Origin: Myxococcaceae bacterium
GTDB taxonomy: Bacteria > Myxococcota > Myxococcia > Myxococcales > Myxococcaceae
Direction: 5' to 3'
NCBI GenBank assembly: GCA_016793095.1
Contig: JAEUJQ010000052.1
Location: forward strand, 62,001 to 126,000
DNA length: 64,000 nt
Below the pieces are notes generated by a model. The model searched no databases. It was not told where the DNA came from and saw only the letters and a program-made list of their open reading frames with translations. Positions 57,849 to 59,761 of this stretch are shown here, in pieces. The first letter of the stretch is position 1. Each line of letters opens with the position of its first letter. The position numbers and the translations under genes were made by a program.

Positions 57849-58499
57849 TCAGGTGGGCTGGACGAGGTCCATGGGGGCAGCGAGCAGCCGCTGGGCGCCG
57901 GCGCCGAGCAGCTCGTCGCGATCGCGGAAGCCCCAGAGGCAGCCGATGCGCTGCATGCCCGCGTTCTTCGCCGTGTTCATGTCGACGGCGGTGTCTCCGA
58001 CGAAGGCGATGTTCGCCGGCAGCACGTTGAGCGAGAGCGCGAGCTCGAAGGCCGCGGTCGGGTCGGGCTTCCTGGGCACGCCCTCCATCTCGCCGCGCAC
58101 GTCGGCGAAGCGCCAGCGCGAGAACTTCTTCGCGACGAGCGCCTTCGTGAAGTCGTCACGTTTGTTCGACAGCACCGCCAGCTTCACCTTCGCCGCGGTG
58201 AGCACGTCGAGCAGCTCGGAGATGCCCGGGTACGGCCCGGTGTGGGCGTGATCGATGAGGCCGTAGTGCTTGCGGTAGTCGTCAGCGATGGCCTTGAGGA
58301 TCTCGGGCCGCGACTCCGGAGCCGCCGCCCGTCGGACCATCACGTCGACCCCCTCGCCGACGAAGCGCCGATAGGCCTCGAGCGGGTGGCCCGGAAGCCG
58401 GAAGTCCTCGAGCGCGCGGTTCATCGCGTCGCCGAGGTCGCGCAGGGAGTCGGCGAGCGTGCCGTCGAGATCGAAGATGACGGCCTGGAACGGGAACAT
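57849..58499 (-). CDS. HAD-family phosphatase, Gph-like
   Basis: A 216-residue HAD hydrolase with all motifs: I, VIFDLDGTLADS; II, LAVLSNKRD; III, the Lys in RKPDP; IV, FVGDTAVDMNTAKNAG. A helical cap lies between motifs I and II, as in phosphoglycolate phosphatases. Substrate is unknown; phosphoglycolate or pyrophosphate are the usual options. The ATG shares one base with the preceding stop (TGATG), so it is coupled to the DUF1801 gene. Confidence 0.9.
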   Translation of the reverse strand: MFPFQAVIFDLDGTLADSLRDLGDAMNRALEDFRLPGHPLEAYRRFVGEGVDVMVRRAAAPESRPEILKAIADDYRKHYGLIDHAHTGPYPGISELLDVLTAAKVKLAVLSNKRDDFTKALVAKKFSRWRFADVRGEMEGVPRKPDPTAAFELALSLNVLPANIAFVGDTAVDMNTAKNAGMQRIGCLWGFRDRDELLGAGAQRLLAAPMDLVQPT

Positions 58500-59080
58500 C
58501 AGACCGCGCCAGACGAGGGATCGCGCACGTTGAGCAGCACCGCCTGACGCACCAGCGCCTGGAGCACGCTCTCTCTCAGCGACTCGAGCGAATCGACCAG
58601 CACCGCCCGGGCGTCTCCGTCCCCGCCGGCCAGCGTGCCCTCGGGCGCGTCGAGCTGCGCGCCCTTCAAGAAGGTGACGAGGACCTCGCGATCGTTGATC
58701 TCGATTCGGGCAAAGAGGCCGTTGGCGTCGTAGGCAGGCCCATGCGGGTCGAGCAGCTCACGCGCCTCGGGGGCCGCGTCACGCACGAGCTGCCGCAGGC
58801 GGTTCACGATCGGCACCACGGGCGGAGGCAGGCTGCGAACGTAGCCCTCGATCTCGGGCAGCTCCGGCAACGTGACCTTCGGGTACACCTTCCGCTTCGG
58901 GGCCGTCTTCGACGCGACCTTCTTCCGAGCGGGCTTCTTCGGGGCGGGCTTCTTCGGGGCCGCCTTCTTCGGGGCGGGCTTCTTCCGGGGCGGAGCCTTC
59001 TTCCCTGTCGCCCGCTTCGCCTTCACCTTCGACTTCGCCTTCGGGGCTTTGCCCCGCTTCGCGCTCTTCCTGGCGGCCAT
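58499..59080 (-). CDS. DUF1801 protein with histone H1-like tail
   Basis: A 193-residue protein. Residues 1-67 are a Lys/Ala/Pro-rich tail of PAPKK and PKKPA units like the tails of histone H1 and bacterial HU-type extensions. Residues about 75-180 match DUF1801 (YdhG-like): YVRSLPPPVVPIVNRLRQLV, then APEARELLDPHGPAYDANGL and VLVTFLKGAQL. The tail should bind nucleic acid nonspecifically. The domain function is unknown. It is coupled to the HAD gene. Its ATG at 59080 faces the selenoprotein gene across 60 bases. Confidence 0.75.
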   Translation of the reverse strand: MAARKSAKRGKAPKAKSKVKAKRATGKKAPPRKKPAPKKAAPKKPAPKKPARKKVASKTAPKRKVYPKVTLPELPEIEGYVRSLPPPVVPIVNRLRQLVRDAAPEARELLDPHGPAYDANGLFARIEINDREVLVTFLKGAQLDAPEGTLAGGDGDARAVLVDSLESLRESVLQALVRQAVLLNVRDPSSGAV

Positions 59081-59140: not shown

Positions 59141-59761
59141 ATGACCGATCTCATCGTCACCGTCTGGTCCGACTACGTCTGACCCTGGTGCTACATCGGC
59201 CTCGGTGAGGTCGACCGCCTGAAGCAGTCGTGGGACTTCGTCATCGACTGGCGTCCCTTCTTGTTGCGGCCGGAGACCCCTGACGAAGGGCTTCCGCTGC
59301 CGGCGCGGGTCAAGGCGTTCATGGCCATCCCCGACAACCCGCTGGTGACGCGCGCGAAGGCGATGGGCCTGGCCATGCGGTTCGATCGAGACCTCATCCC
59401 CTCGACGCGGCGCGCTCACCAGGCGGCGTTGTGGGCGCGCTCGAGGGGCGGGTTCGAGCGCTTCCACCACGAGCTGCTGCGGCGGTACTGGGAAGCAGGC
59501 GAGGACCTGCACGCCTGGGACGTGCTCGAGGCCACGGCGGCCGCCGCGGGGCTCGACGGATCGACCCTGCGAGCCGAGGTCGAGGCGGGGCGGTGGAAGC
59601 AGCCGCTCGACGAGGCGCTGACGGGGGCCACCGAAGCGGGGGTGCACGCGGTGCCCACGTTCCTGGTCGGCGACCGCTTCGTCATTCAAGGCGCGCAGGA
59701 TCAGCAGGTGTTCGCCCAGGCGTTCCAACGCCTCGGCTTCAGCCCGCGAACGACGTCCTGA
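59141..59761 (+). CDS. DsbA/FrnE-like selenoprotein, Sec at residue 14
   Basis: A 206-residue thioredoxin-fold protein of the DsbA/FrnE class, read through an in-frame TGA at 59180-59182. The active site reads SDYV-TGA-PWCYIG, so residue 14 is where FrnE-type proteins have the first Cys of CPWC. The frame is open and family-like on both sides (FVIDWRPFLLRPETPDEGLP before the helical insert, HAVPTFLVGDRFVIQGAQ with the cis-Pro at the end). A stem-loop of SECIS type lies just after the TGA. No signal peptide: cytoplasmic, likely a dithiol/selenol oxidoreductase or isomerase. Alternatives are a nonsense mutation or base error. A start after the TGA would lose the active site. The ribosome site is weak. 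Confidence 0.88.
59196..59214 (+). promoter_or_regulatory. Candidate SECIS element
   Basis: TCGGCCTC (59196-59203) pairs with GAGGTCGA (59207-59214): eight pairs with one G-U, closed by the loop GGT. The loop starts 21 bases after the TGA. Bacterial SECIS elements are short stem-loops directly downstream of UGA with G in the first loop positions and a 16-37 base distance; this fits. It would recruit SelB with Sec-tRNA. Confidence 0.75.

Follow-up and report, generated by a model that had tools for sequence, protein, structure and literature searches.

The gene at 59141-59761 of the window (the whole stretch of 64,000 nt of Myxococcaceae DNA analysed here) almost certainly encodes a FrnE-type DsbA-family protein in which selenocysteine (Sec) takes the place of the catalytic Cys of the CPWC motif, and is, judged from its sequence, a predicted selenoprotein. 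The codon itself, the decoding machinery, the conservation among relatives, the hairpin, the exchange of Sec and Cys and the predicted fold were all observed in the present analysis. The features of the locus are listed in Table 1.

Table 1. Features of the predicted selenoprotein gene and its neighbours (positions in the window)
Feature	Position	Strand	Details or basis
FrnE-type DsbA-family selenoprotein gene (predicted)	59141..59761	+	206 codons + TGA stop, Sec at codon 14
TGA predicted to encode Sec, opening residue of the active-site motif UPWC	59180..59182	+	translation and orthologue codons
Codon 17 (TGC), resolving Cys of UPWC	59189..59191	+	sole Cys in the protein (translation)
SECIS-like hairpin with a GGU apical loop (59204-59206) and a stem of 8 pairs (59196-59203/59207-59214)	59196..59214	+	covariation, synonymous constraint
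cis-Pro block of the thioredoxin fold, codons 172-174 (P-T-F)	59654..59662	+	translation, alignment, model
DUF1801 protein gene, divergent neighbour (context, outside the mechanism)	58499..59080	-	kept beside the gene across the genus and in sister genera
HAD-family phosphatase gene, adjoining the DUF1801 gene (context)	57849..58499	-	conserved neighbour

The gene and its genomic context

The first-pass annotation, made from the DNA letters, described one continuous frame broken only by a TGA at codon 14, with the downstream Cys, the cis-Pro and the family blocks intact. Translation bears out both points: the only internal stop of the frame 59141-59758 is that TGA (a terminal TGA follows at 59759-59761), and Cys17, the cis-Pro region (V171-P172-T173) and the DsbA family blocks are preserved after it. 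The read-through protein matches the Pfam DSBA family over residues 6-196 (1.5e-33, 116.7 bits; the gathering score is 25.6). A weak partial match to the NCBIfam selenolipoprotein family is far under its cut-off, and this family assignment was rejected. Several genes with a DSBA domain are found in the genome, and this is the only one in which an in-frame TGA was found. Since the TGA at codon 14 is predicted to be read as Sec, the protein would probably be truncated by standard gene finders.

A mechanical ORF of 166 a.a. does exist downstream of the TGA (TTG 59261-59761), and the active product might begin there, without the active site and with the upstream part left untranslated. But codons 9-18 (WSDYVUPWCY), which lie ahead of this TTG and would be useless to a truncated protein, rank with the most strongly conserved codons of the Sec forms, and the stop at codon 14 is exchanged only with Cys; we consider a start past the TGA very improbable.

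The HAD and DUF1801 neighbours are kept throughout the genus and also in related genera, beside Sec and Cys forms alike. This conservation supports orthology; it shows no redox operon. A promoter/terminator scan found none. The DUF1801 protein has a long Lys/Ala/Pro-rich N-terminal tail, histone H1-like in appearance.

Codon 14 across relatives

A phylum-wide protein search gave matches in 94 out of 195 genomes, and for the loci fetched, 149 in all, codon 14 was determined from the DNA itself. Stop counts from the genome search were set aside, as a terminal TGA can be counted among them (e.g. the loci L037 and L042 are Cys forms). Codon 14 is TGA, TGC or TGT, and nothing else, across all 149 loci. 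Aligning residue 14 of the close homologues, as had been suggested, gave TGA in 35 out of 66 myxobacterial orthologues and a Cys codon (TGC or TGT) in the other 31; a few of these 66 loci are one genome present in two collections, and the genomes are related, so that the counts are not independent events. Within the genus, all seven genomes have TGA at this position. The selA gene is present in every one of the 35 TGA genomes; it was not found in G068 and G072 (each only ~80% complete), and the orthologues in these two genomes have Cys.

For pairs of TGA genes, dN/dS downstream of the TGA is about 0.04-0.36, which indicates, at the level of sequence, that the region behind the stop-like codon undergoes translation and purifying selection. 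A lineage-specific nonsense mutation that killed the gene would likewise leave an in-frame stop at a codon that normally encodes Cys, but 35 genomes belonging to many genera share the stop at this codon, the frame is conserved together with its TGA across genera, and the low dN/dS comes with no decay; a pseudogene is extremely unlikely. The earlier argument that a random nonsense mutation would rarely hit this codon can be put more strongly, as the same-codon TGA in 35 orthologues with low dN/dS rules out chance. Neither a lack of selA, selB and selC in the source genome nor frames decayed around the TGA in close relatives, either of which would have spoken against Sec, was encountered.

Sec machinery and other selenoprotein candidates

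We searched the source genome (8.8 Mb in 93 contigs, 98.65% complete) for selA, selB, selC and selD, the check proposed in the first-pass annotation, and all four components are present: selA (1.1e-167), selB (2.6e-96, over the cut-off), selD (1.9e-113) and one tRNA-Sec with a UCA anticodon (70.3 bits against a gathering cut-off of 47; ARAGORN reports tRNA-SeC, anticodon tca). A TGA in an open frame would look identical if UGA were read as another amino acid (e.g. Trp, through a changed code or suppression). However, TGA also terminates this very gene and many of the relatives' genes, the full Sec pathway is encoded in the genome, and relatives without TGA have only Cys at codon 14; the chance that UGA is read here as another amino acid is, in our judgement, negligible. 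Decoding of the TGA as Sec, on the other hand, is supported by the machinery, by the restriction of residue 14 to TGA, TGC or TGT and by the SECIS-like hairpin downstream.

In-frame TGA codons at likely catalytic positions were also found in a peroxiredoxin gene (L190, G000:C33:12700; AhpC-TSA, 6.6e-30), at the position of the peroxidatic Cys (FTGGUTRE), and in a SelL-related redox gene (L191, G000:C14:68882), within a UMFC motif; by their sequences, UGA is thus probably decoded in several proteins of this organism. FdhA is the commonest bacterial selenoprotein. A clear formate dehydrogenase gene in this genome (L192, G000:C63:99115-101142) has no in-frame stop, and its catalytic site, ARVCHSPT, is the Cys form. 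Thioredoxin-fold proteins may be the main reason why this genome retains the Sec machinery.

A SECIS-like hairpin downstream of the TGA

The hairpin starts 13 nt past the TGA, and its small apical loop, GGU here and GGC or GUG in other orthologues, contains the G expected of a bacterial SECIS. Out of the 35 Sec orthologues, 33 have all eight stem pairs and two have seven. Across 24 distinct sequences 99.0% of the cells pair, and sliding the stem partner by 1-3 columns lowers the pairing to only 27-56%. Compensatory changes occur at two stem pairs, CG to UA in three sequences and UA to AU in one. Mean synonymous diversity in the Sec forms is 0.05 at the stem codons (19, 20, 21, 23 and 24) and 0.39 elsewhere (permutation p 0.0003); in the Cys forms it is 0.46 at those same codons and 0.31 elsewhere, i.e. 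not reduced.

The proper stem-loop that had been read from the letters is present, with covariation and synonymous constraint. Its folding energy, taken by itself, is ordinary: for the 51 nt from the TGA, in a GC-rich sequence, z = -0.48. Folding energy was accordingly given no weight, and the case for the hairpin was built on the covariation and the synonymous constraint. The Rfam SECIS_1 model has no match in the genome or in the region, a result that is uninformative because the model matched no control genome either. Two Cys orthologues (L143 and L150) retain all eight hairpin pairs, so that the hairpin by itself is no proof of Sec; 14 other Cys orthologues keep seven pairs, and the distant Cys relatives mostly two to five.

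Direction of the Sec/Cys exchange

In a maximum-likelihood tree built with residue 14 masked, the Sec and Cys forms are intermixed, with eight changes in total, at least six of them forced by well-supported branches. If the ancestor of the myxobacterial clade (61 sequences) had Sec, five Sec-to-Cys changes are needed; if it had Cys, seven changes are needed, or eight when only Cys-to-Sec is allowed. Most bootstrap trees agree on the direction of change. The reconstruction favours an ancestral Sec for this clade and roughly five later losses to Cys. One sequence in the tree (L053, BNCN01000012.1), titled Comamonas sp. KCTC 72670, falls inside Myxococcaceae, and the title is probably mislabelled.

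The pairs kept in these Cys orthologues hint at relic SECIS elements, with the complete hairpins of L143 and L150 as possible relics of a recent Sec-to-Cys change, though shared protein sequence explains part of the retained pairing. We lean, with some reserve, towards a history in which Sec was ancestral, some five replacements by Cys followed, the machinery was mostly kept and relic SECIS hairpins were left in Cys genes. Among selenoproteins in general, Cys-to-Sec changes have been reported to dominate, with few Sec-to-Cys changes, mostly in FdhA and SelD (PMC1794560). If the history proposed here is true, this thiol-oxidoreductase family has lost Sec to Cys repeatedly, counter to the published trend (PMC1794560).

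Predicted fold and function

The AlphaFold model (pLDDT 94.7) has the features of the DsbA family: a thioredoxin fold with an inserted helical domain, the UPWC motif opening the first helix (residue 14 is immediately before helix 15-27) and Pro172, predicted to be the cis-Pro, before strand 173-176. Among solved structures, the best Foldseek matches are Deinococcus radiodurans FrnE (5co3, TM 0.81) and Streptomyces coelicolor SCO1869 (3gl5, TM 0.84), and phmmer gave D. radiodurans FrnE (5cnw, 1.7e-22) as the closest by sequence. The DsbA/FrnE type named at first reading agrees with these nearest structures, and the placement in the FrnE subfamily (cd03024) is based on FrnE being the nearest characterised protein and on the UPWC motif. 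A C-terminal CXXXXC is absent, as the translation has no Cys after residue 17. This motif is found in many, but not all, FrnE proteins and is also missing in those of S. roseofulvus and D. maricopensis (PMC8945050), and so does not define the subfamily.

FrnE is described as a predicted cytoplasmic thiol oxidoreductase; studies have treated it as a reductase or isomerase of disulfides, and its loss increases sensitivity to cadmium and diamide (PMC8945050). By analogy with the family, the protein encoded here would have thiol-disulfide activity, probably as a reductase or isomerase, and may have a role in oxidative stress; a cytoplasmic location is suggested by the family and by the lack of an N-terminal extension. 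The Foldseek matches also include kappa GST and 2-hydroxychromene-2-carboxylate (HCCA) isomerase (ranks 8-19), and a selenoprotein with such a role, rather than one in thiol-disulfide chemistry, could be envisaged. FrnE and SCO1869, however, rank above these matches in fold and head the sequence matches, and none of the aligned relatives departs from the UxxC/CxxC pair, which makes this other role unlikely.

Under the preferred assignment as a thiol-disulfide selenoprotein, translation would start at ATG 59141, SelA would make Sec-tRNA-Sec using selenophosphate from SelD, and SelB, bound to the hairpin (59196-59214), would deliver the Sec-tRNA-Sec at the UGA (59180). The mature protein would then contain one Sec (residue 14) and one Cys (residue 17). 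At the N-terminal end of the first helix, the selenolate would attack a disulfide or another oxidised substrate, and Cys17 would resolve the intermediate to give a selenenylsulfide. As Sec14 and Cys17 are the only redox pair, we infer that an outside reductant must then reduce the selenenylsulfide.

The analysis identifies a predicted catalytic selenoprotein throughout a broad group of predatory soil bacteria; among open-licence papers we found no description of the protein for them. The closely spaced natural Sec and Cys orthologues, some of the latter with the hairpin, offer a test of what Sec gives to an oxidoreductase, and the same series lets one ask how Sec goes while the decoding machinery remains.

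Comparison with known systems

DsbA-like selenoproteins with a UxxC motif were first found in 2005 in the Sargasso Sea set, as members of COG2761 (PMC1088965). In 2006 a DsbA-like selenoprotein was listed for Anaeromyxobacter and others (PMC1794560), by 2016 such proteins were reported in 41 organisms (PMC5029168), and a 2026 review lists a 'DsbA-like protein form 1' (PMC13188914). The myxobacterial FrnE-type genes are a new group of members in this known selenoprotein family, not a new kind of selenoprotein. They share with the family (COG2761/PF01323) the DSBA domain, Sec as the first residue of CxxC, a SECIS-like hairpin and widespread Cys homologues, a likeness drawn from descriptions rather than from sequences. 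What differs is that the Myxococcaceae orthologue group goes unmentioned in open-licence papers: in the main texts of these we found none naming a Sec FrnE, or a selenoprotein of this group, in relatives of Myxococcus.

A second DsbA paralogue that contains Sec, distantly related and bearing the motif UP[FY]CF, was observed in the same family and in other families of the order (L162 and L164-L170). The copies with UPFC from other families (L164, L165, L168 and L169) are only ~30-40% identical to the 59141-59761 protein. This paralogue has a different strong hairpin after its TGA (GCAGCCU-GGUC-AGGCUGC), and its one fetched Cys copy (L163) comes from G095, whose genome is complete and shows no more than a trace of selA (23 bits). 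The DsbA-like selenoprotein of Anaeromyxobacter dehalogenans (PMC1794560) resembles the FrnE-type protein in family name, broad bacterial group and Sec machinery, but, matched as it is by description, may instead equal this second UPFC paralogue.

Among characterised proteins, D. radiodurans FrnE (5cnw; PMC8945050) has the DsbA-family FrnE fold, and its CPWC corresponds to the UPWC here. It differs in having Cys where Sec is predicted here and in its C-terminal CXXXXC, which is important for regeneration and has no counterpart in the myxobacterial protein; the two are ~27% identical. S. coelicolor SCO1869 likewise shares the fold (the TM of 0.84 is on the query), and at 26% identity the likeness is one of fold.
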